Shown here: positions 5,361 through 59,279 of the stretch, in pieces
Numbering within the stretch: position 1 is the first letter of the stretch
Layout: the number at the start of each line of letters is the position of its first letter
DNA from: Teichococcus rhizosphaerae
GTDB lineage: Bacteria > Pseudomonadota > Alphaproteobacteria > Acetobacterales > Acetobacteraceae
Assembly: GCF_002631185.1 (NCBI RefSeq)
Contig: NZ_PDNU01000037.1
Coordinates: 1-64,000, forward strand
Length of the DNA stretch: 64,000 nt
Direction of reading: 5' to 3'
The notes under the pieces: model-generated
The model's input: only the letters and a program-made list of their open reading frames with translations
The model's database searches: none
Told to the model about the DNA's origin: nothing
Position numbers and translations under genes: made by a program

Positions 5361-5369
5361 ATTTTCGCA
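5361..5369 (-). promoter_or_regulatory. TGCGAAAAT variant upstream of the rod-binding gene
   Basis: A one-base variant of the recurrent word TGCGAAAAA, read in the direction of the rod-binding gene and 74 bases before its start codon. Confidence 0.4.
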
Positions 5370-5469
5370 TAAAACGGCGCGACATCCGGCCTCCAGAAGG
5401 GACGGCTCCTGATCTCCAGAAGGAGCCAACCCGTGCTGCGCAAGGCGTGGCCAGAGAGGAAGCGTCGCC

Positions 5470-5913
5470 ATGGAAGAGGAGGAGGCCCCCGGCCCGCCGG
5501 ATGAGCCCAAGCGGCGCCACCAGCTCCGCCGGCGTGCCCTGGCGGTGGAGTTGCGTGGGGAGTTCGACCGGCGCCTGCTGGCCGGCGAGGAGGTGGGCAG
5601 CCTGGCGCGCGCCTTCGGCATCGAGCCCTGGTATGCCCAGCGCCGGGCCAAGCGCGTGCTGAGCCGGGTGCAGAAGGGAGGGGAGGTTTCCCCCTTCCTG
5701 TCGTCCTTCCACGAGGTGGAGGACGACATGACGCCGATGCAATATGCCTGCTGCCTGTTGGGCGGCCGGGTCCGGCCGCTGCGCAACGGCTATTACGTCC
5801 TGGATGGCTTCCAGGCCGGGCCCAAGGAAGTGACGCGCGCGGCCAACCGCGTGCTGCGCGAGAAGGGGCTGGCGGAGATTCCGTATCCCGGCCTCACCCC
5901 CCTGTACCGGTAG
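5470..5913 (+). CDS. Unknown protein with possible HTH N-terminus
   Basis: A 147-aa basic protein that I do not recognise. The N-terminal half is Arg-rich and helical. The segment EVGSLARAFGIEPWYAQRRAKRVL (about residues 40-63) has the spacing of a helix-turn-helix. The C-terminal half has a compact pattern (YVLDGF, TRAANRVLREKG, IPYPGL) suggesting a small folded domain. The ATG at 5470 has AGAGGAAG upstream. It stands alone on plus between minus-strand genes and ends at a strong hairpin. A DNA-binding regulator is possible but unproven. Confidence 0.6.
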   Translation: MEEEEAPGPPDEPKRRHQLRRRALAVELRGEFDRRLLAGEEVGSLARAFGIEPWYAQRRAKRVLSRVQKGGEVSPFLSSFHEVEDDMTPMQYACCLLGGRVRPLRNGYYVLDGFQAGPKEVTRAANRVLREKGLAEIPYPGLTPLYR

Positions 5914-5920
5914 CGGAAAG

Positions 5921-5947
5921 GGCTGGCTGCCGCAGGGACAGCCAGCC
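5921..5947. terminator. Bidirectional terminator hairpin
   Basis: GGCTGGCTG (5921-5929) and CAGCCAGCC (5939-5947) are perfect inverted arms with a 9-base loop. They lie between the convergent ends of the 5470-5913 gene and bactofilin, 8 and 18 bases from the two stop codons. Confidence 0.6.
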
Positions 5948-5964
5948 GCCTCATGCTGCCGGCC

Positions 5965-6762
5965 TCAGGCCACCGGCCTGGTGGACAGCAACTGCTCGGG
6001 CGTGGCGCGCAGCTCGGTTTCCAGCTCCACCAGCCCCGGCACGCCCTCCTGGGCCAGTTCCTCCACCGCCTCGGCGGCCGCCTGGGTCGCCTGGGCCAGG
6101 GAGTGCAGCGCCGCCTCCGCCTCGGCGACCAGCGCGGCGGTGCTGACGGCGGCCGTGGCCAGCACCGTGGCCTCCGCCGCTGCCACGGCTGGCGCCACCG
6201 GCAGGGCTTCCGTTCCGCCCGCCCCGGCCATGTCCAGGCCGGACGGCGGCGCGGCGGGAGCGGGCTCCGGTTCGCGCTGCCTGTGCATGCCGCTGACCCG
6301 GGCGCCGCGCTCGATGCTGATCTCGTCATAGATCAGCTCCGCATCGACCATGGCGGTGCGCACGATCTCGATCTCGCGGGCGGTCACGCTGCCGCGCAGG
6401 GCGCCACAGCTGCGCACCCGCTCCGCCGTGACGCTGCCTTCCACAAGGCCGCCCACCTCGATCAGCAGGATGGGCGCGTGCACGCTGCCGCGCAGCACGC
6501 CTTCGACGCGGACCACGCCGCGGCTGCGCAGGCATCCCTCCATCTCGCTGTCGGCCGCCACCAGCATGATGCCGGGGGTATGGCCCGCCGCCGCCGGGCC
6601 GGGCCTGGCACGCTCCATCCTCGGCTCCAGCCGCTCCACCATGGCGCGTGCGCTGCCAGCGGGCATGCCGTCCTCGGCGGCGGTTTCCGCGGGCGCCGAA
6701 AGGTCGATCCGCTCATAGGTGATGCGCGGCTCCCCGCCGCTGGGCTTGCCGAAGAAGCTCAT
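5965..6762 (-). CDS. Bactofilin-type cytoskeletal protein
   Basis: A 265-aa protein. Residues about 62-160 are a bactofilin (DUF583) beta-helix: successive short repeats with the pattern GCLRSRGVVRVEGVLRGSV, LIEVGGLVEGSVTAERV and LRGSVTAREIEI, a right-handed helix that polymerises without nucleotides. Both tails are low complexity; the C-terminal 100 residues are Ala/Glu-rich and probably helical. Bactofilins localise wall enzymes, stalk or polar structures and in some bacteria affect motility; the role here is inferred from the flagellar setting. The ATG at 6762 encodes MSFFGKPSGG, typical of the family. Two AT-rich motifs lie upstream. Confidence 0.85.
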   Translation of the reverse strand: MSFFGKPSGGEPRITYERIDLSAPAETAAEDGMPAGSARAMVERLEPRMERARPGPAAAGHTPGIMLVAADSEMEGCLRSRGVVRVEGVLRGSVHAPILLIEVGGLVEGSVTAERVRSCGALRGSVTAREIEIVRTAMVDAELIYDEISIERGARVSGMHRQREPEPAPAAPPSGLDMAGAGGTEALPVAPAVAAAEATVLATAAVSTAALVAEAEAALHSLAQATQAAAEAVEELAQEGVPGLVELETELRATPEQLLSTRPVA

Positions 6763-6820
6763 GTCCAGTCCCGTTCTAGGAGGCCCGGCACAGGTTCACC
6801 GTACCGCTCAGGCTTTCTAC

Positions 6821-6853
6821 GATTTTCGCGCAAGAACTTCAACATTTTTCGCA
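6821..6853 (-). promoter_or_regulatory. TGCGAAAAA word and a variant upstream of bactofilin
   Basis: An exact TGCGAAAAA at 6845-6853 and a related TGCGCGAAAATC at 6821-6832, both read toward bactofilin, 82 and about 60 bases before its ATG. The first is followed by TGTTGAAG, nearly the same extension as at the 29728 site. Confidence 0.5.
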
Positions 6854-6872
6854 AAGCATGGCGACAAACAGC

Positions 6873-7787: not shown

Positions 7788-7975
7788 GCCTTGTTCTCTC
7801 GATTTCGTGATCAAGAGACCCTGGCACGGCCTGAAAGGCAAGCGCAGGCATTGCCGCTGTGCCAGAAAGCACGATGGAGCCCCAAAGGGCATGGCTCCGC
7901 CGTGTCATCCATTGTATTTCGCAGGATTGTGCAAGCTGTCACACAACCCTGCCGGGCCGCCCTGCGAACGGCCCC

Positions 7976-7992
7976 GCCAGCCAGGGGCTGGC
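7976..7992 (-). terminator. Hairpin after the 8039-8350 gene
   Basis: GCCAGCC and GGCTGGC form a perfect 7-bp stem with a 3-base loop, 47 bases past the stop codon of the minus-strand gene ending at 8039. Confidence 0.4.
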
Positions 7993-8350: not shown

Positions 8351-8745
8351 CGGGAGGGATTCTCCTTCCTGTGAGCCCATGAGATCGGGCGGTCGGCCAG
8401 CATGCCCCCGCTCGGGCCGCAACCTGTTTCCGCGAAGCGTTCTCGCTGGCGGCAGGAGGTGGCGAGGCAGGGCATCGGCACGGTTTCTAGCACGGCACCC
8501 AGGGCGCCACCATTTCCAAGATTCGAGAAATTCGTAAATGCTTTCAATACAATAATTTCAATGCATCTGCGGGCGCAGCGGCCAGGGAGATGATTTCCAT
8601 GCGGGATGGCGATGAGGAAAACGGAAAGCTAAGATTTTTTGCGTATGGATTAACGGGCGAAAAAAGGCTAGATGCGACCAGGGACATGGAACCCCCTGTC
8701 CGGCGGGACCAGGCCGGCCAGTTGCAGCCAGGGAGAAAGGGCAGG
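8351..8745. promoter_or_regulatory. Divergent intergenic region with AT-rich tracts
   Basis: 395 bases between divergent genes, with clear AT-rich tracts at about 8515-8570 and 8615-8680 that stand out from the GC-rich background and probably hold promoters. GGCGAAAAA at 8657-8665, one base from the recurrent TGCGAAAAA word, points toward the plus-strand gene. An alternative start for that gene at 8599, with GGGAG upstream, would place the second AT tract inside the coding region, which its composition argues against. Confidence 0.45.
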
Positions 8746-10491
8746 ATGGCACGGGCAGGCGGAACAGCGCGAAAGGTGGCAAGGCCGGCGGCGCCGCAGG
8801 CCGGCCGGATCGTCCAGCTCCAGGGCCAGGGCGCCGATAGCCCCAGCTTCTCCATCGAGCTGGTGACGCCGCAGGGCGCGGCCGAGCTGCTGCACCGCAG
8901 GCGCCCGAGCGCGGGCGACAACCCCAACGCCATCAACGCCTATGCCGAGGCGATGCGGGAAGGCCGCTGGATCCTCAACGGCATGCCCATCATCCTTTCC
9001 CGCGCCGGGGTGCTGCTGGACGGGGTGCAGCGGCTGCGCGCCTGCATCAAGGCCGGCGTGCCCTTCCTGACCGTGCTGGCGCAGAACATCCCCGACGACG
9101 TGCTGCACACCATCGACCAGCAGCGGCGCCGATCCTTCGCCGGCGTACTGGAGGCGCGCGGCGTGCCGCATGCCCACGCCCTGCAATCGGCCCTCGTCAA
9201 GCTGATCCGCTACGATGACGGCAAGATGCTGCGCGGCGCCGGCACCGCCTCCTGGTCGCGCATGGACCGGGTGCTGCGCGCCAATCCCGATCTCGAGCAG
9301 GCGGTGAAGATGTCGCTGGAGAGCGAGGCGAGCATCCTCTCCGAGGCGGTGCGCACGCCGCTGCTGTTCATGGGCTTCCGCGTCGACAAGGCGGCGACCC
9401 GCCGCTTCCTCGATGCCGTCGCCTGGCCCGAGAAGCACTCGCCCCTGGAGCCCGGCGCCCGCATCCGCGACCTGATCGACGTCACGCGCGGCGACCCGGC
9501 CACCCGCCTGAAGCCGGTCATGCTGTTCGCGCTCTGCATCAAGGCGCTGAACGCCACGATCAGCGGCCGGCACGCGCGCAGCTACACCTGGATCGACCGC
9601 ACCGCCAACCCGACCAAGGGCGAGGATTTCCCCCGCCTCGAAGGCTATGCCGGGCTGCACGACCCCGGCCATGGCAGCGACACCGAGGAGGCCACGCGCA
9701 TCCTGCGTGCGGCGGTGGAGCGGCTGTCCGGGGAGGAGAATGTCTATCCGCTGGCGGTCGAGACGATCTCGCCGCGGATGGCGGAGGAATACCTCGCCCA
9801 CAACACGCGCAACCGCAAGATCGTGGCCGCCCACGTGGATGCCATCGCGCGCGACATCCGCGCCGGCAACTGGATGATGAACGCGCAGCCCATCTGCTTC
9901 AGCCGCTCGGGCCGCCTGCTGAACGGGCAGCACCGGCTTTCCGCCGTGATCCAGGCGGGCGAGGCGATCGAGGTGCCGGTGATGCGCGGCCTGCCCGAGG
10001 AGGCCTACGACACCTACGACATCCACGCCAAGAAGGGCCCGCAGCTCGGTGCCGCCTTCGAGAATTTCGGCGACCGTCCGCTGGTCGCCGCCGCCGCCGT
10101 GCTGCTCTGGAAGCGCGAGCTGAAGCCCGCCGGCACCCGCAACGCCAAGCCGACGCCGGCCGAGGTGATGCGGATCGTCGAGCAGCATCCGCGCCTGCTG
10201 GAGATGCGCACCTTCGGCCGCAAGATGATCGAGTTCGGCCGCGGCTCCGTGCTGGCCTATGCCGCCTACTGCATCGAGCGCGACGACCCCGAGCTGGGCC
10301 GCGTCTTCCTGGAGCGCTTCGAGAGCGGCGCCGACCTGCCGCGCGGGCACCTGATCCTGGAGCTGCGCAAGCGCATGCAGATCCTGCGGCGCGAGCGGAC
10401 CAGCCAGGAGGAGCAGCTGCGCGAGGTGCTCGCCGCCTGGGCGCGCTTCCGCGAGAAGCCGGACCTGGACCGGCTGAACGCCCCAGGCTGA
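8746..10491 (+). CDS. Tandem double ParB-N-like nuclease/DNA-binding protein
   Basis: 581 aa from the ATG at 8746 (GGGAG and AAAGGG upstream). Two homologous halves are visible. The first begins at about residue 36 (VTPQGAAELLHRRRPS, then GRWILNGMPIILSRAGVLLDGVQRLRA). The second begins at about residue 337 (ISPRMAEEYLAHNTRN, then GNWMMNAQPICFSRSGRLLNGQHRLSA). The DGQHRL-type box, with its preceding strand and following helix, resembles the ParB N-terminal fold of a family common in phages and plasmids. In the first half QH is changed to VQ, so that half may be degenerate. Alternative in-frame starts exist at 8590 and 8599. It lies inside the flagellar region; role unknown. Confidence 0.65.
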   Translation: MARAGGTARKVARPAAPQAGRIVQLQGQGADSPSFSIELVTPQGAAELLHRRRPSAGDNPNAINAYAEAMREGRWILNGMPIILSRAGVLLDGVQRLRACIKAGVPFLTVLAQNIPDDVLHTIDQQRRRSFAGVLEARGVPHAHALQSALVKLIRYDDGKMLRGAGTASWSRMDRVLRANPDLEQAVKMSLESEASILSEAVRTPLLFMGFRVDKAATRRFLDAVAWPEKHSPLEPGARIRDLIDVTRGDPATRLKPVMLFALCIKALNATISGRHARSYTWIDRTANPTKGEDFPRLEGYAGLHDPGHGSDTEEATRILRAAVERLSGEENVYPLAVETISPRMAEEYLAHNTRNRKIVAAHVDAIARDIRAGNWMMNAQPICFSRSGRLLNGQHRLSAVIQAGEAIEVPVMRGLPEEAYDTYDIHAKKGPQLGAAFENFGDRPLVAAAAVLLWKRELKPAGTRNAKPTPAEVMRIVEQHPRLLEMRTFGRKMIEFGRGSVLAYAAYCIERDDPELGRVFLERFESGADLPRGHLILELRKRMQILRRERTSQEEQLREVLAAWARFREKPDLDRLNAPG

Positions 10492-10952: not shown

Positions 10953-10999
10953 CATCAACCCTCTTGGCCCGCATCCGGCCCTGTTCTAGTATGTATCCG

Positions 11000-11008
11000 T
11001 TTTTCGCA
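11000..11008 (-). promoter_or_regulatory. TGCGAAAAA word upstream of the FliJ-like gene
   Basis: Exact word on minus, directed into the FliJ-like gene, 47 bases before its ATG; it continues CGGATACATACTAGAAC. The divergent protease gene begins just to the right. Confidence 0.5.
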
Positions 11009-20204: not shown

Positions 20205-20252
20205 GCGACAGGATGGCCCGTTCCGTGGCGGAGATCATGTTTAGCCTGTTCG

Positions 20253-20261
20253 TTTTTCGCA
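20253..20261 (-). promoter_or_regulatory. TGCGAAAAA word upstream of motB
   Basis: Exact word, directed into motB, just past the stop codon of the upstream gene. The preceding sequence TGGCACTTGAAATGCG has GG and GC ten bases apart, as at sigma-54 promoters; most other copies of the word lack this. Confidence 0.5.
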
Positions 20262-20263
20262 TT

Positions 20264-20998
20264 TCAAGTGCCATGCCCCTGATCCGCGTGCCGCACCGTC
20301 AGGCTGCCTTGCAGGCGCAGCGCTGCAAGCACGGCATGAAAAGCCTCCTGGAGATCGGCGCAAGAATTTCGCGCAAGCGGACGCTCCGTTTCCATCACCG
20401 CGTCAAGGCGCTCCTCCTCCAGGCGGGCCCGCCACTCGATCCGCCCCGTGGCGGGAAGGTGGAGCCGCACGGCCAGAGCGTGCCGGTCGGGCCGCAGGGC
20501 ACGGCCCGCCCGGTCGGGGCGCCAGAACACCGACATCCAGAGCAGCTCGCCTTCCGGCCCCAGCAGCGGCACGCTCCGCCCGCTCCAGAGCGAGGGATCG
20601 CCGAGCATGGCGGGCGGCGCGGGCGCCGCCTCCAGCAGGGCGGCCAGCGCCCCCGCCTCAAGCCCGTGCGCCTGCGCCAGCGCCTCCAGGGCGGCGGCGC
20701 CGAGCCAGCGCACCGGCTCGGGGCGCAGCAGGGCCAGCGCCAGGGGCAGGGCCAGGCCGCCGCCGCCGCCCGGCAGCAGCGGCTCCGCCCCGGCCTCCCG
20801 CCACGCTCCGGCCCGCAGAACAGGGTCGTCCGGGGAAGCGGCCTCCGCCGCGCCGCGGCCCAGCGGCGGCACGGCGCTGAGGGCCCGGGCCGCCGCGGCA
20901 TAGCCGGCACCAGCCTCGCGCCCGGCCGGCGCCAGGGCAGGAAGGGCCGGAACGGGCGGAATGGGGCCCGGGCCGCCCCCGCCCTCATCCGCCGCCAT
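20264..20998 (-). CDS. FliK C-terminus-like protein of unknown role
   Basis: A 244-aa protein. The first 120 residues are Ala/Gly/Pro-rich low complexity. The last 90 (LAVRLHLPATGRIEWRARLEEERLDAVMETER, then LQEAFHAVLAALRLQGSLTVRH) recall the FliK hook-length-control C-terminal fold: a strand LPxxGRxxxxxRL, a second strand, and a helix. It is in the fliF-flgI run between fliG and motB, with the true fliK at 49800-51470. It could be a second FliK-like secretion-control factor; that is inference. Confidence 0.5.
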   Translation of the reverse strand: MAADEGGGGPGPIPPVPALPALAPAGREAGAGYAAAARALSAVPPLGRGAAEAASPDDPVLRAGAWREAGAEPLLPGGGGGLALPLALALLRPEPVRWLGAAALEALAQAHGLEAGALAALLEAAPAPPAMLGDPSLWSGRSVPLLGPEGELLWMSVFWRPDRAGRALRPDRHALAVRLHLPATGRIEWRARLEEERLDAVMETERPLARNSCADLQEAFHAVLAALRLQGSLTVRHADQGHGT

Positions 20999-25758: not shown

Positions 25759-25959
25759 CGACCTTCTATCGCCCCATGCTGGCTGCGGATGCGTCAGCAC
25801 CGTTCTTCACGGCCCCGCCACGTCCCTCGACCCTGCCTTATCCCGCCGCCATATCGCCTCAGACGTTTTTAGCATGGCATGCGAGAACGCGTCGGTTTAT
25901 ATCTGCGGCCACTCCGCTTGTCGCGCGAAAAATCGCAATCGCCGGGAGATCCGCCGCCC
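25759..25959. promoter_or_regulatory. Divergent fliF / fliL promoter region
   Basis: 201 bases between divergent fliF and fliL, with an AT-richer pocket at about 25860-25935. CGCGAAAAA at 25924-25932, one base from the recurrent TGCGAAAAA word, points into fliL 28 bases before its ATG. Confidence 0.45.
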
Positions 25960-26490
25960 ATGTCTTCGACACCCGCGGACAAATCCGCGAAAAACCAGGA
26001 AAATCCCCTCCGTGGAAAGGGCCGCAGAAGGCTTCTCCCGGCGCTGCTGCTGTTGCCGGCGCTGCTGGGCGGCGGGGCCGCCGGCGCCTGGTTCCTGCTG
26101 CCCGGCCTTTCCGGCCAGGTCACGGCCCTGCTGGGCGGCCCGCCCGCCGAGGAGGCCGGGGCGGAGGCCGCCCTCCCCGCGTCTGGCAGGGCAGGCTTCG
26201 TCGAGTTCCCGGAGATGACCCTTTCCCTGCCGAATGGCGGCCGCCCCCGCCAGCTTCGCCTGAAGCTGGCGGTGGAGGTGGCGGGCGATCCGGCGCTGGT
26301 GCAGCCCGACCTGCTGAGCCCGCGGATCTATGACAGCCTCATCCTCTACCTGCGCACCCTGCGCGACGGCGAGATGGAGGGCGCGCTGGCGATGGACCGC
26401 CTGCGCGGCGACCTGCACCGGCGCCTGGAGCTGGTGCTGGGCCCCGGGCGGATCCGCGACGTCCTGATCACCGGCTTCGTGGTGGCCTGA
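25960..26490 (+). CDS. fliL: Flagellar basal-body protein FliL
   Basis: 176 aa from the ATG at 25960 (GGGAG upstream). A basic cytoplasmic start is followed by one transmembrane helix (LLPALLLLPALLGGGAAGAWFLL) and a periplasmic domain with FVEFPEMTLSLPN, LKLAVEVAGDPALVQ and the helix-strand ending RIRDVLITGFVVA, as in FliL. It encircles and supports stators in other bacteria. First gene of the plus-strand set fliL-fliM-DUF6468-motE; fliM follows two bases later. Confidence 0.9.
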   Translation: MSSTPADKSAKNQENPLRGKGRRRLLPALLLLPALLGGGAAGAWFLLPGLSGQVTALLGGPPAEEAGAEAALPASGRAGFVEFPEMTLSLPNGGRPRQLRLKLAVEVAGDPALVQPDLLSPRIYDSLILYLRTLRDGEMEGALAMDRLRGDLHRRLELVLGPGRIRDVLITGFVVA

Positions 26491-29004: not shown

Positions 29005-29673
29005 TCAGCGCCCGGCTGTCGGGACAGGGCTGCCCTGGGCCAGCATGGCCCTGGCCGCCTGGGCGGAGATGGCCTTGCAGCCGGTGGGCTGGTAGAGCGC
29101 GTATCCGCCTTCCGCCAGCGCCATGATCCGCTGGCGCGAGGCGGGCAGCAGGAACTCGAAGTCCCCTTCCAGCAACGCGGCGGCCGCCTGCGCCTCCGGC
29201 GGCAGGTGCAGGCCCCGCCCGGCCATGTGGCGCAGGAGGGCCAGCAGCGCATCCAGCGTGGCGGCGTGGGCCAGCGGCGCGTGCTTCGCGGCCGCGCCGC
29301 CGGGGCGTAGGGCCAGCGACCAGCCAGGCTCCCCGCCCTGCCCCTCGGCCAGTTCCAGGCACCACGAGCCTTGCCATGCCTGCCACAGACGGGGGGTGGC
29401 CTGCACGAAGCGCAGCACCGCCCCAGGCGCGGCCGGGTGGGCGGGCGCGGGGTCGAGCCGGATGCCGAGCGTGGCGAAGCGGGAACGGGGCCCCTGGTTG
29501 CGCCACCACATCCAGCCCGCCACGCCCGCCATCAGGGCCAGGGAGGCCAGCGGCACGGGATCGGCGGCGCGGGCCAGTTCCGGCATGCCGCCAAGGCTCG
29601 CGCCGAGGCCAGCGGCACCCAGCGCGGCCAGCGCGGAAAGGGGGAGACGGCGGAACAGGGAGGAAGGGGTCAT
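29005..29673 (-). CDS. Unknown membrane-anchored protein
   Basis: 222 aa from the ATG at 29673; an in-frame ATG at 29718 is an alternative. N-terminal hydrophobic stretches (LSALAALGAAGLGASLGG and VPLASLALMAGVAGWMWW) suggest two membrane segments or a signal plus an anchor. The rest is soluble and alpha/beta in character (FATLGIRLDPAPAH, LRFVQATPRLWQAWQGSWCLELAEG), with a helical end. Not recognised. An exact TGCGAAAAA word is just upstream. Confidence 0.6.
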   Translation of the reverse strand: MTPSSLFRRLPLSALAALGAAGLGASLGGMPELARAADPVPLASLALMAGVAGWMWWRNQGPRSRFATLGIRLDPAPAHPAAPGAVLRFVQATPRLWQAWQGSWCLELAEGQGGEPGWSLALRPGGAAAKHAPLAHAATLDALLALLRHMAGRGLHLPPEAQAAAALLEGDFEFLLPASRQRIMALAEGGYALYQPTGCKAISAQAARAMLAQGSPVPTAGR

Positions 29674-29727: not shown

Positions 29728-29736
29728 TTTTTCGCA
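29728..29736 (-). promoter_or_regulatory. TGCGAAAAA word upstream of the 29005 gene
   Basis: Exact word directed into the minus-strand gene, 54 bases before the chosen ATG, followed by TTGTTGAAG, almost as at bactofilin. Confidence 0.5.
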
Positions 29737-29821: not shown

Positions 29822-29846
29822 TGCGAAAAATGCATAATGCGAAAAT
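29822..29846 (+). promoter_or_regulatory. Two TGCGAAAAA-type words upstream of the 29883 gene
   Basis: TGCGAAAAA at 29822-29830 and TGCGAAAAT at 29838-29846, 16 bases apart start to start, same direction, 36-52 bases before the ATG of the plus-strand gene. The divergent gene on the other side has its own copy. Confidence 0.5.
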
Positions 29847-29882: not shown

Positions 29883-30191
29883 ATGCCGGAACCGACCATC
29901 CCCTTTCCCGAGGCGCCCTTCTGGGAGGATGCCGTGGGCGCCATGCTGGTGCGCGCCGCCGCCCAGGGCCGGCGGGATGGCATGGACCAGATGATCCGCC
30001 AGGAGGCCGATCCCACCGGCCCGGCCACCCCCGCCGCCGATGCTGTGCTGCCGCCGGAATTGCGGCCCATGCTGCGGATCGCGCTGCGGCAATGCTACAT
30101 CGCCGGCCGCCTGCACGGGGCCGAGGTGCGGCGCGAGAACGACCGCCGCCTCGCCCGCCAGGAGCCGCCCCTCGGCGCCCTGCCGGGCTGA
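29883..30191 (+). CDS. Small unknown protein
   Basis: A 102-aa soluble, helical protein (FWEDAVGAMLVRAAAQGRRDGMDQMI, LRPMLRIALRQCYIAGRLHGAEVRREN). Not recognised. The ATG at 29883 follows GGAGACCCATC. It carries the same upstream word as motility operons, so I infer co-regulation with the flagellum. It is convergent with the transglycosylase gene. Confidence 0.6.
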   Translation: MPEPTIPFPEAPFWEDAVGAMLVRAAAQGRRDGMDQMIRQEADPTGPATPAADAVLPPELRPMLRIALRQCYIAGRLHGAEVRRENDRRLARQEPPLGALPG

Positions 30192-31259: not shown

Positions 31260-31268
31260 TGCGAAAAA
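31260..31268 (+). promoter_or_regulatory. TGCGAAAAA word upstream of motA
   Basis: Exact word 25 bases before the chosen motA start and 12 bases before its GGGAGG ribosome site. This closeness means the word cannot be a -35 box for motA unless transcription starts inside the leader. Confidence 0.5.
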
Positions 31269-31293
31269 TGATCGTAGCACGGGAGGATGCGAA

Positions 31294-32253
31294 ATGATAA
31301 GAGCCTTGCAGCGGCCAGTTCCTGGCCCGACCGTCGCAACATGCGGGGCCGCCCAGTCGATGATCCAGATCGCCGGAATTCTCGGAGTTTTCGTTGCCGT
31401 CTTTGGCGGTTACCTGATCGCAGGCGGCAAGATGGGGGTGATCCTGCATGCTGTCGGGCCGGAGATGATGATCATCGGCGGCAGCGGCTTCATGACGCTG
31501 CTGATCGGCGGCGACGGCGCCCTGGTGGCCAAGACGGTGAAGTCGTTCGGGACCGTCTTCAAGGGACCGCGCTGGAACCGGAAGGATTTCAGCGACGTGC
31601 TGTGCCTGCTCTACCTGCTCCTGCGCACGCACCAGAAGGAGGGCGCGGCGAAGCTCGAGAAGCACATCGAGAAGCCCGAGGCCTCGCCGATCTTCACCCG
31701 CTACGCGCGGCTGACGCAGGACCCGGCACTGCGCGGCCTGGTCTGCGACACGATGCGGACCATCACCCTCAACAACAAGGATCCGCACCGCGTCGGCGAG
31801 ATGATGGAAACCACCATCGAGAAGCGCCACAACGAGAATCTGAAGCCCGCCAAGGCCATCCAGACCATGGCCGACGCCTTTCCCGCCCTCGGGATCGTGG
31901 CGGCGGTGCTGGGCGTCATCAAGGCCATGGGCGCCATCAGCGAGAGCCCCGAGGTGCTGGGTCGGATGATCGGCGCGGCGCTGGTGGGCACCTTTCTCGG
32001 CGTCTTCCTGTCCTACGGCCTGATCGGGCCGATGGCCGCCCGCCTGAAGGCGATCTTCGAGGAGGAAAGGCGGATGCTCGAGGTCACGCGGGTGGTGATC
32101 ACCAGCTATCTGGAGAATCTCTCCCCCCAGATCTGCGTCGAGGTCGGCCGCCAGGCGGTGCCTTCCCGGCACCAGCCGAGCTTCGACCAGATGGAGGAGC
32201 AGCTGCGCGAGGCCGGCCGGGTGAAGACCGACGGCGAGGGCGGCGGGGAGTAA
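31294..32253 (+). CDS. motA: Stator protein MotA
   Basis: 319 aa from the ATG at 31294, which has a clean GGAGG; the conserved MotA sequence begins at the second ATG (31360, IAGILGVFVAVFGGYLIAGG), which lacks a ribosome site, so an N-terminal extension of 22 residues is likely. Four membrane helices are visible, with the cytoplasmic loop ILTRYARLTQDP-like segment and the TMADAFPALGIVAAVLGVIKAMGAI and FLGVFLSYGLIGPMAARLKAI helices that line the proton channel. MotB is 11 kb away on the minus strand. First gene of motA-(32260)-flgF-flgG-flgA-flgH. Confidence 0.93.
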   Translation: MIRALQRPVPGPTVATCGAAQSMIQIAGILGVFVAVFGGYLIAGGKMGVILHAVGPEMMIIGGSGFMTLLIGGDGALVAKTVKSFGTVFKGPRWNRKDFSDVLCLLYLLLRTHQKEGAAKLEKHIEKPEASPIFTRYARLTQDPALRGLVCDTMRTITLNNKDPHRVGEMMETTIEKRHNENLKPAKAIQTMADAFPALGIVAAVLGVIKAMGAISESPEVLGRMIGAALVGTFLGVFLSYGLIGPMAARLKAIFEEERRMLEVTRVVITSYLENLSPQICVEVGRQAVPSRHQPSFDQMEEQLREAGRVKTDGEGGGE

Positions 32254-38264: not shown

Positions 38265-39092
38265 TCAGTGGATGCGCCCCGGATGGGTGAAGATCTCGCA
38301 ACAGGCGCCGCGCGCCAGGGCGACCAGGGTGATGCCGCATTGCTCCGCCACCCGGATGGCGAGCGCCGTGGGGGCGGACACCGCCACCAGCAGGGGCGCG
38401 CCGATCATGGCGGCCTTCTGCACCATCTCCACCGAGACGCGGCTGGTCAGCAGCAGCGCCCCCCCCGCCGCCAGGCCCTGCCCCCCTCTCCGCTCCTGGC
38501 GCGCCAGGGCGCCGGCCAGCTTGTCCAGGGCATTGTGGCGGCCGACATCCTCGCGCAGAAGGACAAGCCCTTCCCCGCTCCGCCAGAAGCCCGCGGCGTG
38601 GGCCGCCCGCGTTTCCCGGTGCAGGGCCTGCGCGGCGGACAGCGCCTCCATGCCGGCCTCGATCTCGGAAGCGGGAAGACGCGTCGGGTCGGCCACCGCA
38701 GGCAGGCTGCGCGACGCCGCCTCCAGGCTCTCGATGCCGCACAGCCCGCAGCCCAGCGGACCCGCCAGGCGGCGGCGGCGGCTGGCCAGCGCCGCCGCGC
38801 GATGCTCCGCCAGTTCCATCCGCAGCTCGATGCCGGCGGGCCGCGGCACGACGTCGAGCGACAGCATCTCCGCAGGCTCGCCGATCAGTCCTTCCGTCAG
38901 GCTGAAGCCGAGGCCCAGCTCCTCGAGCGCCATGGGGCTGGCCATCATCACGGCGTGGGTGGAGCGGCCATAGGTGAGCGCCACGGCGGTTTCCTCCGCC
39001 ACGGTCCGGAAGCCCGCCTCCGCCCGGTCGCCCTGCCGCGCCAGGCGGGGCAGGACGAGGCTGGGCCGGGCCGACGCGTCCTGCATCATCAT
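38265..39092 (-). CDS. fdhD: FdhD, formate dehydrogenase sulfurtransferase
   Basis: 275 aa from the ATG cluster at 39086-39092 (GGGAGG upstream); a longer frame to 39119 would need a TTG. FdhD passes sulfur from IscS to the molybdenum cofactor of formate dehydrogenases. Seen here: VMMASPMALEELGLGFSLTEGLI, the essential Cys motif GCGLCGIE, and the C-terminal REDVGRHNALDKLAGAL and SRVSVEMVQKAAMIGAPLLVAVSAPTALAIRVAE blocks. Divergent from the molybdopterin oxidoreductase gene it probably serves. Confidence 0.95.
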   Translation of the reverse strand: MMMQDASARPSLVLPRLARQGDRAEAGFRTVAEETAVALTYGRSTHAVMMASPMALEELGLGFSLTEGLIGEPAEMLSLDVVPRPAGIELRMELAEHRAAALASRRRRLAGPLGCGLCGIESLEAASRSLPAVADPTRLPASEIEAGMEALSAAQALHRETRAAHAAGFWRSGEGLVLLREDVGRHNALDKLAGALARQERRGGQGLAAGGALLLTSRVSVEMVQKAAMIGAPLLVAVSAPTALAIRVAEQCGITLVALARGACCEIFTHPGRIH

Positions 39093-39191
39093 GGCGTGTT
39101 CCTCCCGCTGCGCCGACAAGGAAGACGCGTGGCGGCGGCGGCGGTTTCGCGGGAACCTCCCGTGCCACCCCGCGTTGGAGACGAAACCGCA

Positions 39192-39216
39192 CGACGTTGC
39201 ACGCGCGACATTGCAC
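39192..39216 (+). promoter_or_regulatory. Direct repeat before the molybdopterin oxidoreductase gene
   Basis: CGACGTTGCAC (39192-39202) and CGACATTGCAC (39206-39216), 10 of 11 identical, 14 bases apart, 13 bases before the ATG. A candidate operator in the 137-base divergent region shared with fdhD. Confidence 0.35.
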
Positions 39217-39229
39217 AGGGAGGCGAGAC

Positions 39230-41551
39230 ATGCCGCAGGATGCCGTGAAGATTGAGCCCTACAAGGGCCCGGCGGGCGGCTGGGGCTCGGCGCAATCCCT
39301 GCTGCAATCCATCCGGCGCGACGGCGCGGCGCAGGACGTGCTGCGGCTGCTGCCGCAGCAGAACAAGAAGGACGGCTTCGCCTGCGTCAGCTGCGCCTGG
39401 GCCAAGCCGGCCGAGCCGCACCCCTTCGAGTTCTGTGAGAACGGCGCCAAGGCCACCACCTGGGAGCTGACGGACCGCCGCGCCACGCCGGAGTTCTTCG
39501 CCCGGCACACCGTGGCGGAGCTGCGGCGCTGGAACGACCACGACCTCGAATACAGCGGCCGGCTGACCGAGCCGCTGCGCTACGACCCGGAAACGGACCG
39601 CTATGTCGCCACCTCCTGGCCCGAGGCCTTTCGCGCCATCGGCGCCGAGCTGAGGGGGCTGAGCCCGGAGGAGGTCATCTTCTACGCCTCCGGCCGCGCC
39701 TCGCTGGAGACGAGCTACATGTACCAGCTCTTCGCCCGGCTCCATGGCAGCAACCACCTGCCCGACAGCTCCAACATGTGCCACGAGACGACCAGCGTCG
39801 CCCTGCCGCAAAGCCTCGGCGTGCCGGTGGGCACGGTGCTGCTCGAGGATTTCGAGCACACCGACTGCATCCTCTCCTTTGGCCAGAACACCGGCACGAA
39901 CAGCCCGCGCATGCTGCACCCGCTGCAGAAGGCGGCGAAGCGCAACGTGCCCATCATCGTCTTCAACCCGCTGCGCGAGCGCGGGCTGGAGCGTTTCGTC
40001 AATCCGCAGAACCCGGTGGAGATGGCCGGCAACGCCCTGGCCGGCCAGGACACGCGGCTGGACAGCCAGTACCACCAGCTCAAGGCCGGCGGCGACGGCG
40101 CGGCCATCATGGGGCTCTGCAAGGCGGTCATCGCCGCGGACGACAAGGCGCGCGCGGCCGGCCGGCGGCCCGTCATCGACCATGACTTCATCGCGCAGCA
40201 CACGCATGGCTTCGAGAGCTTCGCCGAGAGCGCGCGGGCCATCGGGTGGTCCCTGATCGAGCAGCGCTCGGGCTTGTCGCGCGCGGCGCTGGAGGGCGCG
40301 GCAAACGTCTATTGCAACGCCCGCGCCGTCATCGCCAAGTTCGGCATGGGGCTGACGCAGCACCGCGACGGCGTGGAGACCGTGCGGCTGCTGATCAACC
40401 TGCTGCTCCTGCGCGGCAATATCGGCCGGCGCGGCGCCGGCATCCTGCCGGTGCGCGGCCATTCCAACGTGCAGGGCCAGCGCACCGTCGGCATCTCCGA
40501 GAAGCCGAAGCTCGTGCCGCTCGACCGGCTGGCGGAGCAGTACGGCTTCGAGCCGCCGCGCTGGGAGGGGTGGAGCACGGTGGATGCCTGCCAGGCCGTC
40601 ATCGATGGCAAGGCGCGCGGCTTCATCGGCCTGGGCGGCAACTTCACCCGCGCCGTGCCGGACACGGAGCGCGTGGAGGCGGCCTGGCCCGGCCTGCAGC
40701 TGACCGTGCATGTGGCGACCAAGCTCAACCGCAGCCACCTGCTGCCGGGAAAGGTCAGCTACCTGCTGCCCTGCCTCGGGCGGCTCGAGATCGACCGGCA
40801 GGCCGGCGGCCCGCAGGCGGTGTCCATCGAGGACAGCACGGCCTGCATCCATGGCTCGCGCGGCAAGCGCGAGCCGGCGAGCCCGCATCTCCTGTCCGAG
40901 CCCCGCATCGTGGCCGAGATGGCCAAGGCCACCCTGCCCGCCAATCCGCGCCTCGACTGGGATGGCTGGGTGGCCGATTACGGCCGGGTGCGCGACGCGA
41001 TCGAGGCGACCTACCCGAAGGACTTCAAGGATTTCAACAAGCGGCTCTTCGAGCCCGGCGGCTTCCCCCGCCCGCTCGGCGCGCGCGACCGGATCTGGGC
41101 CACCGACACCGGCAAGGCCAATTTCGTGACGCCCGGCACCGTCTCCAAGGCGCAGGACCCGCAGCCGGCGGACGTGCTGCAGCTCATCACCCTGCGCAGC
41201 AACGACCAGTTCAACACCACCGTCTATGGCTACCATGACCGCTTCCGGGGCGTGCAGGGCACCCGCATGGTGCTGTTCATGAACCGCGCCGACATGAAGC
41301 GGCTGGACCTCAAGGAGGGCGAACTGGTTTCGCTGGCCTGCGCCATCGAGGATGGCGTGACGCGGCGCCTGGGCGGCTTCCGCGTGACGCCCTATGGCGT
41401 GCCGGAAGGCTGCTGCGCCGCCTATTACCCCGAATGCAACCCGCTGATCCCGCTCAGCCACCACGCGGAAGGCAGCAAGGTGCCGGCGGCCAAGGCCGTG
41501 CCCATCCGCATTGACCGGGCCGCCGCGCCCCGCCCCTTCGGCGCGGTCTGA
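39230..41551 (+). CDS. YdeP/FdhF-type molybdopterin oxidoreductase
   Basis: 773 aa from the ATG at 39230 (GGGAGG). It matches the stand-alone formate-dehydrogenase-alpha-like family (YdeP): KIEPYKGPAGGWGS start, FACVSCAWAKPAEPHPFEFCENG with a reduced cysteine set instead of a full 4Fe-4S motif, FYASGRASLETSYMYQLFARLHGSNHLPDSSNMCHETTS, and the C-terminal molydopterin dinucleotide-binding domain (LQLITLRSNDQFNTTVYGYHDRF). The substrate is not established for the family; YdeP has been tied to acid resistance. No electron-transfer subunit lies nearby. Pairs with fdhD; unrelated to the flagellar genes on both sides. Confidence 0.88.
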   Translation: MPQDAVKIEPYKGPAGGWGSAQSLLQSIRRDGAAQDVLRLLPQQNKKDGFACVSCAWAKPAEPHPFEFCENGAKATTWELTDRRATPEFFARHTVAELRRWNDHDLEYSGRLTEPLRYDPETDRYVATSWPEAFRAIGAELRGLSPEEVIFYASGRASLETSYMYQLFARLHGSNHLPDSSNMCHETTSVALPQSLGVPVGTVLLEDFEHTDCILSFGQNTGTNSPRMLHPLQKAAKRNVPIIVFNPLRERGLERFVNPQNPVEMAGNALAGQDTRLDSQYHQLKAGGDGAAIMGLCKAVIAADDKARAAGRRPVIDHDFIAQHTHGFESFAESARAIGWSLIEQRSGLSRAALEGAANVYCNARAVIAKFGMGLTQHRDGVETVRLLINLLLLRGNIGRRGAGILPVRGHSNVQGQRTVGISEKPKLVPLDRLAEQYGFEPPRWEGWSTVDACQAVIDGKARGFIGLGGNFTRAVPDTERVEAAWPGLQLTVHVATKLNRSHLLPGKVSYLLPCLGRLEIDRQAGGPQAVSIEDSTACIHGSRGKREPASPHLLSEPRIVAEMAKATLPANPRLDWDGWVADYGRVRDAIEATYPKDFKDFNKRLFEPGGFPRPLGARDRIWATDTGKANFVTPGTVSKAQDPQPADVLQLITLRSNDQFNTTVYGYHDRFRGVQGTRMVLFMNRADMKRLDLKEGELVSLACAIEDGVTRRLGGFRVTPYGVPEGCCAAYYPECNPLIPLSHHAEGSKVPAAKAVPIRIDRAAAPRPFGAV

Positions 41552-42913: not shown

Positions 42914-43063
42914 CGAAAGCCCCTTCCGCGAAAAATTCCTGGTTCCCGCCCCGGCCCATGCCGGGCGCGGCAAGTTTCCGGGAAAGAGTTATGCGAAAAA
43001 TCTCGACAAGAGCAAGAGGCTGACGCTATTCGTCGGGCTCACGGCAAGAGGCGCTGCGATCCC
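42914..43063. promoter_or_regulatory. Divergent fliI / flgB promoter region with TGCGAAAAA
   Basis: An exact TGCGAAAAA at 42992-43000 points into flgB, 63 bases before its ATG, and the preceding CGGGAAAGAGTTATGCG keeps GG and GC ten bases apart, as in sigma-54 promoters. A variant CGCGAAAAA lies at 42927-42935, also on plus. Confidence 0.5.
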
Positions 43064-52624: not shown

Positions 52625-52633
52625 TTTTTCGCA
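52625..52633 (-). promoter_or_regulatory. TGCGAAAAA word upstream of cheY
   Basis: Exact word directed into cheY, between the unknown 52671 gene and cheY, followed by CGTCTAGAATG. Suggests cheY-cheZ-fliK-flgD has its own promoter. Confidence 0.5.
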
Positions 52634-52670
52634 AGACCTATTGGTGGCGTCCCGCCGGTTTCCCGCGCGC

Positions 52671-55184: not shown

Positions 55185-55224
55185 GGGATCGGTCTTCATC
55201 CATGGCGGCAAACGCGAAATCTCT

Positions 55225-55301
55225 TGCGAAAAAACGCGGTGAGAGGTATCCCTGCCTTCCCCGCAGGAAGCGGGAATGGCTTCGCCGGGATATGCGAAAA
55301 A
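55225..55301 (+). promoter_or_regulatory. Two TGCGAAAAA words upstream of minC
   Basis: Exact copies at 55225-55233 and 55293-55301, both directed into minC, 99 and 31 bases before its ATG. These tie minCDE to the same signal as the motility operons. Confidence 0.55.
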
Positions 55302-55332
55302 CCTGGGAAGCGCCGGCAGAAGGCAGGCGTGC

Positions 55333-56031
55333 ATGAGGCATGACAACACTCGGGCGGCGGCGGCGCAGGCTTCTCTCCGCCTGCGCGGCCGTTCCCATCC
55401 CTTTCTGACCCTGGAGGTGGCCGAGATGGACCCGGCCACCTTCGAGGAGGCGCTCGCGGCGAAGCTGAGCAGCACCGCCAGCTTCTTCCGCCATGCGCCG
55501 GTCCTGCTGGACCTGACGGCCCTGCCCGCCGGGGCGGCGCCGGAGATCCCCCGGCTGCTGGCCGTGATCCGCCGGCTGGGGCTGGTTCCGGCCGCCTTTC
55601 GCGCCCGCTGGCCGGAGATCGACCGCGCCGCCCTGGCGGCCGGGCTCGGGCGGATGCTGGAGCCCGAGGCCAGCCAGGATGTCGCCCTGCCCTGCGACCG
55701 CCGCCCCACCGTCATCGTCAGCGAGCCCGTGCGCTCGGGCCAGCGCATCTACGCGGCGGAGGCCGACCTGGTCGTGCTGCACTCCGTCTCGCCCGGGGCG
55801 CAGCTGCTGGCCGATGGCTGCATCCATGTCTATGGCGCGCTGCGCGGCTCGGCCAGCGCGGGGGTGGGGGACGACCCGCATGCCCGCGTCTTTGCGAAAA
55901 TCATGGACCCGGAAATGCTCTCCATCGCCGGCCTCTGGCTCGGCGCCGAGGAGATTCCGGCCGAATGGGTGAGGCGGCCGGCCCAGCTGCGCATCGCCGA
56001 TGGCTGGCTGCGCTTCGCCCCGCTTCCCTGA
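55333..56031 (+). CDS. minC: Septum-site inhibitor MinC
   Basis: 232 aa from the ATG at 55333 (GAAGG upstream; ATG at 55276 also in frame). The N-terminal domain (LRLRGRSHPFLTLEVAEMDPATFEEALAAKLSSTASFFRHAPVLLDLTALP) and the C-terminal beta-helix (RSGQRIYAAEADLVVLHSVSPGAQLLADGCIHVYGALRGSASAG, then IMDPEMLSIAGLWLG) are both standard. It blocks FtsZ polymerisation away from mid-cell in complex with MinD. Confidence 0.94.
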   Translation: MRHDNTRAAAAQASLRLRGRSHPFLTLEVAEMDPATFEEALAAKLSSTASFFRHAPVLLDLTALPAGAAPEIPRLLAVIRRLGLVPAAFRARWPEIDRAALAAGLGRMLEPEASQDVALPCDRRPTVIVSEPVRSGQRIYAAEADLVVLHSVSPGAQLLADGCIHVYGALRGSASAGVGDDPHARVFAKIMDPEMLSIAGLWLGAEEIPAEWVRRPAQLRIADGWLRFAPLP

Positions 56032-56086
56032 CCCCGCCCTCGCCCGATCCCACGGCACCACACCGCACGACAACAGGGAGAACCCG

Positions 56087-56938
56087 ATGTCCGCGACCGT
56101 CATCACCATCACCTCCGGCAAGGGCGGGGTCGGCAAGACGACCACCACCGCCGCCTTCGGCGCCGCCCTCGCCCTGCGCGGCAAGCGCGTCTGCCTGGTC
56201 GACTTCGATGTGGGCCTGCGCAACCTGGACCTGGTGCTCGGGATCGAGAAGCGGGTGGTCTACGACTTCCTGCACGTCGCCAACGGCCAGGCCAAGCTGC
56301 AGCAGGCGCTGATCCGCGACAAGCGGATCGAGAACCTCCACGTCCTGGCCACCTCCCAGACGCATGAGAAGGACGCGCTGACCCTCGAGGGCGTGAACCG
56401 CGTGATGGCCCAGCTGCGCGAGGAGTTCGACTACATCCTCTGCGACAGCCCCGCCGGCATCGAGCACGGCGCCATGATGGCGCTCTACCACGCCGACCAT
56501 GCCATCGTCGTCTGCAACCCCGAGGTCAGCTCGATCCGCGATGCCGACCGCATCCTGGGCTTCATCTCCGCCAAGTCGCGGCGCGCGGAGGAGGGGCGCG
56601 AGCCGGTGCGCGAGCACCTGCTCGTCACCCGCTTCGACCAGGAGCGGGTGCGGAGCGGCGAGATGGTCGGGCTGGGCGACATCCAGGACATCCTCTCGGC
56701 CGAGCTGCTGGGCGTGGTGCCGGAAAGCAAGGCCGTGCTGAAGGCCTCGAATGCCGGCGTGCCGGCCAGCCTGGACGAGGAAACCGATGCCGGCCGCGCC
56801 TATCGCGATGCCGTGTCGCGCTTTCTGGGCGAGGTGCGCCAGCCCGTCCGCCTGCCCAGCATGGCGCCGGTGCGGCATGTGCTGGAAGCCAGCGCCGAGC
56901 CGCGCGGCTTCCTGCGCCGGCTGTTCCGGTTCGCCTGA
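56087..56938 (+). CDS. minD: Septum-site ATPase MinD
   Basis: A 283-aa MinD. Deviant Walker A KGGVGKTT (residues 12-19), VCLVDFDVGLRNLDLVLGIEKRVVYDFLHV, the switch region DSPAGIEHGAMMALYHADHAIVVCNPEVSSIRDADRILG, and the C-terminal amphipathic membrane helix GFLRRLFRF. AGGGAG upstream. Cycles on and off the membrane with MinC and MinE. It is not FlhG: it lacks that family's N-terminal helix and is paired with MinC and MinE. Confidence 0.97.
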   Translation: MSATVITITSGKGGVGKTTTTAAFGAALALRGKRVCLVDFDVGLRNLDLVLGIEKRVVYDFLHVANGQAKLQQALIRDKRIENLHVLATSQTHEKDALTLEGVNRVMAQLREEFDYILCDSPAGIEHGAMMALYHADHAIVVCNPEVSSIRDADRILGFISAKSRRAEEGREPVREHLLVTRFDQERVRSGEMVGLGDIQDILSAELLGVVPESKAVLKASNAGVPASLDEETDAGRAYRDAVSRFLGEVRQPVRLPSMAPVRHVLEASAEPRGFLRRLFRFA

Positions 56939-56959
56939 CACCCCGAGGAGACCGATGCC

Positions 56960-57205
56960 ATGCCCCTGATCGCCCTGATCCAGCGCCGCCGCAACACGGC
57001 CGGCCTCGCCGCGGCGCGCCTGCGCAAGCAGGTGAGCGCCGACCGCATGGCGGTGCTGGGCGACGACATCACGCAACGCATTCAGGAGGCCTGCCTGCGG
57101 GAGATCCGCAAGCTGGCCCGCGGCGGCCATGTGCGCGTCAAGATCGGCACCTCGCCGGCGCTGGAGCTGCGCGAGATCGACATCGACCTGACGCCGGGGC
57201 GCTGA
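56960..57205 (+). CDS. minE: MinE, topological specificity factor
   Basis: An 81-aa MinE: a short N-terminal membrane/MinD-binding part (ALIQRRRNTAGLAAARLRKQVSADRMAVLGDDITQRIQEACLREIRKL) and a small dimerisation domain (VRVKIGTSPALELREIDIDL). It stimulates MinD ATPase and drives oscillation. Third gene of minCDE. Confidence 0.9.
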   Translation: MPLIALIQRRRNTAGLAAARLRKQVSADRMAVLGDDITQRIQEACLREIRKLARGGHVRVKIGTSPALELREIDIDLTPGR

Positions 57206-57214
57206 GGCGGCGCC

Positions 57215-57448
57215 ATGCTGATCTCGGCTTCCCAGTGCCGCATGGCCCGCGCCGCCCTCGGCATGAGCATGCGCGAGCTCGCCATGGCGGCCGGCGTTTC
57301 CGTCAACACGCTGGGCCGCATCGAGGGGGATGGCAACGTCACCAGCCGCACCCTGGTCAGGGTGCAGGAGATCCTGGCACGCAGCGGCGTGGTGTTCCGG
57401 CGCGACGGCTCCGTCGGCATCGGCCAGCCGCCGCGGGAGGACCCCTAG
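57215..57448 (+). CDS. XRE-family HTH regulator
   Basis: A 77-aa protein that is a single Cro/CI helix-turn-helix: ISASQCRMARAALGMSMRELAMAAGVSVNTLGRIEGDGNVTSRTLVRVQEILARSGVVF. Ten bases after minE in the same direction, so possibly in its transcript. Convergent with repA (30 bases). It could regulate min or the replicon; not known. Confidence 0.85.
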   Translation: MLISASQCRMARAALGMSMRELAMAAGVSVNTLGRIEGDGNVTSRTLVRVQEILARSGVVFRRDGSVGIGQPPREDP

Positions 57449-57477
57449 GGCCTGCCGGCCAGGCCGGCCGGCCACGG

Positions 57478-58509: not shown

Positions 58510-58579
58510 GGCCCCAGCGCGTCCTGCTGCACCGTTGTGGACGAGCCGGCCGGGAGATGCCAGCGCTGGATGCGGGGCT

Positions 58580-58818
58580 GTCGGCGTCACGACGAGTCTT
58601 TTCCCGCCCCTCCTCGTCGTGACGCCGACAGGCGGGGCATGGGGCAGGCCGGACAGGCGGACAGAGTTATCCACAGCCCCTCACTCGTCGTGACGCCGAC
58701 ACCCTGCACCGCACTCGTCGTGACGCCGACATATCCTCGTCGTGACGCCGACATATCCTCGTCGTGACGCCGACACATCCTCGTCGTGACGCCGACGCAT
58801 CCTCGTCGTGACGCCGAC
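58580..58818. repeat. Iteron array (RepA binding sites)
   Basis: Seven direct copies of the 17-bp CTCGTCGTGACGCCGAC start at 58613, 58684, 58714, 58736, 58758, 58780 and 58802; the last five are spaced exactly 22 bp, two helical turns. One perfect inverted copy is at 58580-58596, closest to repA, where it could serve autoregulation. This is the arrangement of an iteron-controlled plasmid origin next to its initiator. Confidence 0.92.
58667..58675 (+). promoter_or_regulatory. DnaA box
   Basis: TTATCCACA, the perfect DnaA-binding consensus, between the first and second direct iterons. Confidence 0.85.
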
Positions 58819-58861
58819 GCGAACAGGGAGCAAGTCCATGAAATCAAAGCCTGAATCCGGC

Positions 58862-58913
58862 CCCATAACTGTATAACTCTTTGACTCTTTGACTCTTGAA
58901 ACACTTCTAAAAG
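58862..58913 (+). other. AT-rich unwinding region
   Basis: About 52 bases with strongly reduced GC, containing CTCTTTGACT repeated, directly beyond the iteron array. Its place matches the DNA unwinding element of iteron origins. Confidence 0.6.
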
Positions 58914-59023
58914 GTCTGGCGGAGAAAACGCCCGTCCAGCCGGGAAAGCAGGATGCGGCCAAGTTCGGGAAAGCCCTGAAAAGGGCCATGAGAAGCGGAG
59001 ACCAGAAGCCGCTTTCCGCAAGT

Positions 59024-59155
59024 GTCGGCGTAATGACGAGTCTGATCGCGCTATCAAGCGCTAAATCAACTCTGGGTTGATAAACAGCAACTCAATTCAA
59101 AATCTCGAGTTGATTCCTGGTGTAGCCAGGAAATTGCGGTCGTCGCGACACCGAC
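59024..59155. repeat. Degenerate distal iterons
   Basis: GTCGGCGTAATGACGAG (59024-59040), inverted, matches the iteron at 15 of 17 positions; GTCGTCGCGACACCGAC (59139-59155), direct, at 14 of 17. Both lie beyond the AT-rich tract, so iteron-like sites flank the likely unwinding region. Confidence 0.55.
59064..59115. repeat. Inverted repeat AATCAACTC / GAGTTGATT
   Basis: Perfect 9-bp arms at 59064-59072 and 59107-59115, 34 bases apart, in an AT-rich stretch on the far side of the origin. Related TTGAT and CAACTC words lie between. Function unknown; it could be a protein site. Confidence 0.45.
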
Positions 59156-59270
59156 AGGCCGAGGGTCTTTTCCATCAGGCAGGTCCAAAGCGCGGAGCCT
59201 CCTGCGTTCTTCTGAAAACAAGACCCGCAGCAACAACAGGATCGTCCAGGACGTTCCGGGGTGGAATTTA

Positions 59271-59279
59271 TGCGAAAAA
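59271..59279 (+). promoter_or_regulatory. TGCGAAAAA word upstream of the 59355 gene
   Basis: Exact word 75 bases before the ATG of the small membrane protein, followed by CGTTGGAAG. Confidence 0.45.

Follow-up and report, generated by a model that had tools for sequence, protein, structure and literature searches.

What role does a 9-bp word play that stands repeatedly before motility and cell-division genes on one Roseomonas-type replicon of Teichococcus rhizosphaerae (Acetobacteraceae)? The window analyzed here comprises 64,000 nt (positions 1 to 64,000 of contig NZ_PDNU01000037.1) and contains a flagellar cluster, which we call type 1, as well as min genes. An initial annotation had noted 11 exact copies of the word TGCGAAAAA and had considered a −10-type or leader element or an activator site, rather than a −35 box. 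Among these options, the activator site is the best-supported reading. Most probably, the word is the conserved center of a putative transcription-factor operator, TTWTGCGAAAAAYNWTNR, which would define one flagellar regulon at RpoD-like promoters. All 11 copies were confirmed in position and strand. Dinucleotide shuffling of the window gave an expected count of 0.03, in agreement with the far below-one estimate of the initial annotation, and none of 100 shuffles reached 11. The sites are as follows, with promoter boxes where we could read them.

6845–6853, minus strand: TGCGAAAAA before bactofilin, upstream of a −35 TTGAAG (6837–6842) and a −10 TAGAAA (6814–6819) read by eye, 17-bp spacer
11000–11008, minus strand: TGCGAAAAA before a fliJ-like gene; −10 candidate TAGAAC (10983–10988)
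20253–20261, minus strand: TGCGAAAAA before motB, within the 18-bp spacer between −35 TTGAAA (20262–20267) and −10 TAAACA (20238–20243)
29728–29736, minus strand: TGCGAAAAA before the gene of a 222-amino-acid (aa) protein (29005–29673)
29822–29830, plus strand: TGCGAAAAA before the gene of a 102-aa protein (29883–30191); variant TGCGAAAAT next after it at 29838
31260–31268, plus strand: TGCGAAAAA before motA; by eye, the word, six bases, TAGCAC (31275–31280), 17 bases and TAAGAG (31298–31303), a layout repeated in eight loci and not above the permutation null described below
42992–43000, plus strand: TGCGAAAAA before flgB; −35 TCGACA (43003–43008), −10 TATTCG (43027–43032); variant CGCGAAAAA nearby at 42927
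52625–52633, minus strand: TGCGAAAAA before cheY/cheZ; TTGCGA (52629–52634) is the probable −35, not above the null
55225–55233, plus strand: TGCGAAAAA before the min operon; by eye, TTGCGA (55224–55229) as −35 and TATCCC (55247–55252) as −10, 17 bp apart
55293–55301, plus strand: second TGCGAAAAA before minC
59271–59279, plus strand: TGCGAAAAA before a 92-aa open reading frame (ORF; 59355–59633) with no Pfam family
5361–5369, minus strand: variant TGCGAAAAT (TTTATGCGAAAATTTGCTGA) before the gene of a rod-binding protein
25986–25994, plus strand: variant CGCGAAAAA before fliL; a further variant lies at 25924

Called genes cover ~85% of the replicon and contain none of the 11 copies, as first described. 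A co-directional called gene starts within 250 bp downstream of ten; the eleventh, at 59271, precedes the 92-aa ORF, which the gene finder had overlooked. For five of those ten, the intergenic region is divergent, and the distance to a gene is by itself no guide to direction. The range of 25–99 bases to the gene start, given initially, is roughly right; for the copy at 55225, the minC start that relatives point to gives ~105 bases. One-mismatch matches in the window number 14; they include all five variants named before, one of which begins at 8656 rather than 8657. Two of the 14 (25014 and 55893) lie inside called coding sequence and one (25676) directly before the called fliF start. The name of the fliJ-like gene stems from the initial annotation; no Pfam family matches its product, and the orthologue is annotated as hypothetical.

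Across the genome (4.65 Mb, 113 contigs), the word occurs 14 times, with 11 copies on the 65.8-kb window contig, and a mirrored control word four times. The contig bears a RepA gene, so annotated in its R. marmotae orthologue, and, by eye, ParA- and ParB-like genes. The three outside copies lie on contigs C1, within a long transporter-like reading frame, C92, with nothing clear downstream, and C42. The last of these (G000:C42:24534, ATATGCGAAAAA) starts 36 bases before an ATG of a gene for a lytic transglycosylase-like protein with an SLT domain; this gene is a possible unlinked member of the regulon.

The word recurs at orthologous operons of relatives. We compared 11 homologous loci, from nine genomes including that of the window plus the first 50 kb each of NZ_CP061093 and NZ_CP115855; several are partial (in G009, 29 kb of the 100 kb read are N), so per-operon counts are lower bounds. 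These loci hold 133 copies of the word, in which orthologous sites are not independent, versus a single copy of the mirrored word of equal composition. The 120 intergenic copies comprise 58 co-directional with a gene, five opposed, 51 in divergent regions and six near no start; 58 of the 63 unambiguous copies thus face their gene. The word precedes the fliJ-like gene and flgB in all 11 loci, motB and cheY in at least ten, minC in at least nine, motA and a 119-aa gene (g60) in at least eight, flagellin and the 102-aa gene (g35) in at least seven and bactofilin in at least five. The initial statement that flagellin is not preceded by the word holds in the window; in seven of the 11 loci, an exact copy lies 111–148 bp before the main flagellin gene. 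The parallel statement for repA and parA stands throughout, with no copies assigned to these genes in any of the loci. Neither equal density in coding sequence, nor random orientation, nor a lack of conservation at orthologous operons, the outcomes that had been named in advance as contrary to the idea, was observed.

The word also follows one flagellar type. Of 17 same-genus genomes, counting that of the window, 15 have a flgB with ≥71% identity to the window's; each of these contains 12–24 copies. G008, in which no flgB was found, has one copy, and G016, with an flgB only 45% identical, has three; the type-2 flagellar cluster of G016 contains none in 40 kb. Similar sites at orthologous operons and their scarcity without the system, both observed here, are what a transcription-factor regulon predicts. 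Clustering was assessed, among the positions listed, in assemblies less fragmented than, for example, G010 and G013: in G004, an 88-kb contig has 15 of the 16 copies; in G007, 15 of 16 fall in a 50-kb part of a 3.78-Mb contig; and G012 and G014 have 16 of 19 and 15 of 19 on the flagellar contig. Three named records place the type-1 system on plasmids; in a further genome, it is part of a 3.8-Mb contig.

To place the word relative to core promoters, we aligned 90 sites from seven loci. Their logo reads TTWTGCGAAAAAYNWTNR and shows no strong second box at a fixed distance outside the word's own flanks. Pairs of −35 and −10 boxes were scored for each of ten promoter families with a self-written weight matrix against a null of 60 column permutations. 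Pairs with a 16–18-bp spacer exceeded 59 or 60 of the 60 permutations in six families and not in the other four: all 60 for flagellin, bactofilin (downstream copy), the fliJ-like gene, motB and flgB, 59 for minC. For flagellin, the layout is TTGCGA-N18-TAGAxx (7/7), and for minC TTGCGA-N17-TAxxCx (8/9; in the ninth, G000, the script chose the downstream copy). The motB promoters have TTGAAA or TTGAAT with 17–18 bp (10/10). At flgB, a TCGACA-like −35 starts at an offset of 11–12 bases 3′ from the first base of the word in ten of 11 loci, the script having chosen the downstream copy in G004. The winning bactofilin offset belongs to the downstream copy, with three of five sequences fitting, and the fliJ-like spacers are mixed, from 16 to 18. 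The motA and cheY layouts, read by eye, are probable. A T precedes the word in 24 of 27 minC, cheY and flagellin sites versus five of 35 flgB, g60, motA and g35 sites (Fisher P = 2.8 × 10−9, for families split into classes after inspection of the sequences). Side by side in eight loci, the motA promoter block (31275–31303 in the window) consists of a TAGCAC-like box, 17 bases and TAWGRG, with a second TGCGAAA within the spacer.

These offsets bear on the earlier options. Counted from the first base of the word, the readable −10 boxes start 11 to 38 bases in the 3′ direction (by eye for motA), which speaks against a −10-type or leader element. The view that the word is no −35 box is upheld for flgB, motB and, by eye, motA; at minC, flagellin and probably cheY, the word together with the preceding T reads as a −35. 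Because its offsets to the −35 and −10 differ, the word probably serves neither as a −10 or leader element nor as the −35 box for an alternative sigma factor.

Conservation extends, in part, beyond the genus. We searched 397 Acetobacteraceae genomes with the FlhA of the window. Among the best matches listed, identity was 85–100% in 12 same-genus genomes, 67–81% in G323, G237, G297, G173 and G403 and at most 53% in the remaining rows. G173, the Rhodovastum genome, agrees in coordinates with the Rhodovastum atsumiense plasmid NZ_OW485602. All five other-genus genomes carry the word or its core TGCGAAA before flgB, at a similar distance from the gene across genera. In 14 promoters of these genera that were picked by hand and scored, the in-genus layout ranked first in seven: four of five flgB promoters, the motB promoter of G323 (TTGAAT-N17-TATAGG) and those of minC (TTGCGA-N17-TATGTG) and cheY (TTGCGA-N17-TATAGA) in Rhodovastum. 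The flgB layout has a TCGAC- or TGGA-type −35, which starts at an offset of 11 or 12 bases 3′ from the first base of the word, then 16–17 bp and a TA-type −10; it was the best pair in four of the five genomes and the second in G237. In the flagellar part of the Rhodovastum plasmid, TGCGAAA occurs 23 times versus 5.4 expected, with 14 of the 23 copies intergenic where 19% is non-coding; the non-flagellar part has eight versus 5.6 expected, two of them intergenic. Homologues of the gene g11 in G021, G228, G051 and G006:C144 had no other type-1 cluster gene in the 20–40 kb read.

From these data, we propose a regulon comprising the type-1 flagellar cluster, its bactofilin, CheY/CheZ and the second Min system described below. 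A factor would bind close to or on the −35 of RpoD-like promoters, in nearly every case in the same orientation. The predicted operator would lie roughly one helical turn 5′ of a weak −35 at flgB (TCGACA) and, by eye, motA (TAGCAC); at minC, flagellin and probably cheY, it would itself supply the −35 as TTGCGA; at motB, it would sit between −35 and −10; and at bactofilin, one copy would lie upstream of the −35, often with a second in the spacer. Judged by the orientation of the sites and the weak promoter boxes, activation appears more likely than repression.

Several other explanations were weighed against a factor-bound operator. The word could be the −35 box of a specialized, alternative flagellar sigma factor; this would account for the single prevailing orientation, the flagellar specificity and the −35 position in minC, cheY and flagellin. 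Such a factor needs near-fixed spacing to a second box, however, whereas the 90-site logo reveals none and −10 distances vary, making this explanation very unlikely. Loose patterns for the sigma-28 and sigma-54 consensus sequences gave zero and four matches, respectively, in 12 regions, and promoters of either type were rejected on these few matches, the lack of a fixed second box and the −10 offsets differing between families. Composition alone, with A-runs favored by intergenic DNA in a 72% G+C genome, can hardly explain the word in view of the 133:1 ratio to the mirrored word and the similar flgB distances across genera. Within the operator reading, a repressor blocking RpoD promoters takes a minority share. 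Overlap of the sites with the core promoter (~−50 to −23) would fit it; a repressor needs no single orientation, yet nearly all unambiguous copies face their gene, and the −35 boxes in or beside the word (TCGACA, TAGCAC and TTGCGA) deviate from the RpoD consensus. In PMC8144410, the Caulobacter RpoD boxes are given as TTGaCgS (−35) and GCtANAWC (−10).

A number of observations count against the activator-operator interpretation as formulated here. Positions of ~−50 to −23 are unusual for a simple activator and would suit a repressor too. Thirteen of the 133 copies lie inside called coding sequence, and clustering on the flagellar contig is weaker in G009 (7/12). The promoter matrix was self-made, and the null was reached in eight of 60 permutations for cheY, 25 for motA, eight for g35 and four for g60; the bactofilin boxes in G000 and G003 rest on eye and scored poorly by the matrix. 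In other genera, the flagellin promoter of G403 and the flgK, bactofilin and motA promoters of G323 had no first-ranked matching layout (a similar one ranked second for motA), and the two copies before cheY in G403 yielded weak pairs only. Furthermore, neither regulator candidate discussed below co-occurs perfectly with the word across genera. An iterated weight matrix for the word came to reflect nothing but A+T richness and was abandoned; all site counts use exact words.

Which protein might bind the operator? We infer a cluster-encoded regulator, with two candidates in the window; the chance of an unlinked chromosomal factor is no smaller than that of either one.

57215–57448, plus strand: candidate XRE-type HTH_3 protein, 77 aa, at the end of the min operon
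5470–5913, plus strand: candidate helix-turn-helix (HTH) protein, 147 aa, no Pfam family, between the bactofilin and rod-binding genes

The XRE protein matches PF01381 (HTH_3) with 31.3 bits against a cut-off of 23, which assigns it to the XRE family. Its role as the bound factor, in which it would regulate its own operon via the minC site, is a tentative possibility. At E ≤ 1e-8, its presence coincides with that of type-1 flgB in the genus: the 15 genomes with this flgB, out of 17, have it, and 21 other genomes gave no match. In Rhodovastum and G323, too, its gene is the last of the min operon, and SVNTL.R.E is conserved in ten aligned orthologues. Against this, the within-genus pattern is expected of any gene in the cluster, G237 gave no match, and the matches in G297 and G403, with no min genes in the 2–3 kb read, are barely better than that in G016, a genome without a type-1 flagellum. 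XRE operators are usually palindromic, and the word is at best half so. Two XRE orthologues (G002:C35:2486-2713 and G013:C279:14387-14605) contain one TAG inside the matched stretch; the G002 gene call suggests that it is merely the gene's end.

The HTH protein is a doubtful candidate. A three-helix HTH domain is predicted behind a basic stretch (AlphaFold mean pLDDT 75; helices 26–37, 42–49 and 53–70), and the protein occurs in 13 of 17 same-genus genomes and also in G323 and G237. Outside the genus, genomes with the protein have TGCGAAAAA; in Rhodovastum and G403, searches for the protein found none, and the word is mostly the shorter TGCGAAA. This correlation with the A-tract involves two lineages only and may reflect ancestry, with G297 (full word, protein not found) as an exception. 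Since Rhodovastum and G403 keep the core word and flgB layout without it, the protein is weakened as first candidate. It was likewise not found in G009, with its N stretch, or in G015, which is 71% complete. Pfam gave no match at E ≤ 0.01 and, at E ≤ 10 for the protein and two orthologues, two sub-threshold matches, neither to a DNA-binding family; Foldseek gave none at E ≤ 0.001, and a PDB profile search gave 13 matches at E ≤ 1, mainly to designed repeat proteins. A Rhodovastum gene near fliI annotated as ‘winged helix-turn-helix’ was set aside, its translation in our judgement resembling a transposase remnant. A bolder and rather unlikely scenario is that a small DNA-binding protein of a mobile flagellar-plus-Min cluster reads a word that became the −35 in some promoters, operator and promoter element in one; the HTH protein would then represent a novel type of flagellar master regulator.

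Known systems offer partial parallels. Class II activator sites overlap or adjoin the −35 box. The predicted operator resembles them in position and prevailing orientation and differs in that its offset varies by ~27 bp between operons. The CtrA site is TTAA-N7-TTAA. It matched once in the 12 regions (TTAACCAT: four in all), and a CtrA regulon was rejected on this count. With alphaproteobacterial RpoD promoters (PMC8144410), several operons share TTGxxx/TAxxxx pairs 16–18 bp apart; the word is extra, has varying offsets and replaces the −35 in minC and flagellin. CtrA control of alphaproteobacterial flagellar genes (PMC12363192) is similar in that one regulator serves many flagellar operons; the word differs from the CtrA site. 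A literature search in which subscription journals were mostly not covered, judged by titles and the openings of abstracts, returned no account of the element, including for the letters TGCGAAAAA with ‘flagellar’. A likely regulon of the type-1 system is hereby defined from sequence alone, and the word provides a short handle for finding a flagellar regulator in Acetobacteraceae. The cluster may carry its own switch instead of relying on CtrA alone.

The regulon would also extend to cell division: the word suggests that a second Min system belongs to it.

55339–57205, plus strand: minC, minD and a gene in the minE position, a second Min system downstream of the word

The gene in the minE position has no Pfam match; its Rhodovastum orthologue is annotated as MinE. 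Contig C37 carries another minD copy, with 63% identity to that of the cluster. Two minD copies are present in 13 of 14 same-genus genomes; G008, in which no flagellum was found, has only the non-cluster one.

Two further regions of the cluster stood out. At 38265–41551, the flagellar cluster includes a gene judged FdhD-like by eye as well as an FdhF/YdeP-type gene for a molybdopterin oxidoreductase. In the stretches read from the ten other loci, the oxidoreductase was not found and the FdhD-like gene appeared in G012 only; the Rhodovastum plasmid has a 63% match outside its flagellar part. The gene at 8776–10488 encodes a large conserved protein that has no Pfam match, is annotated as ParB/RepB/Spo0J in its P. 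cervicalis orthologue and is 83–89% identical in the ten other loci and 56–57% in Rhodovastum. Its upstream region, at ~8514–8660, is A+T-rich.

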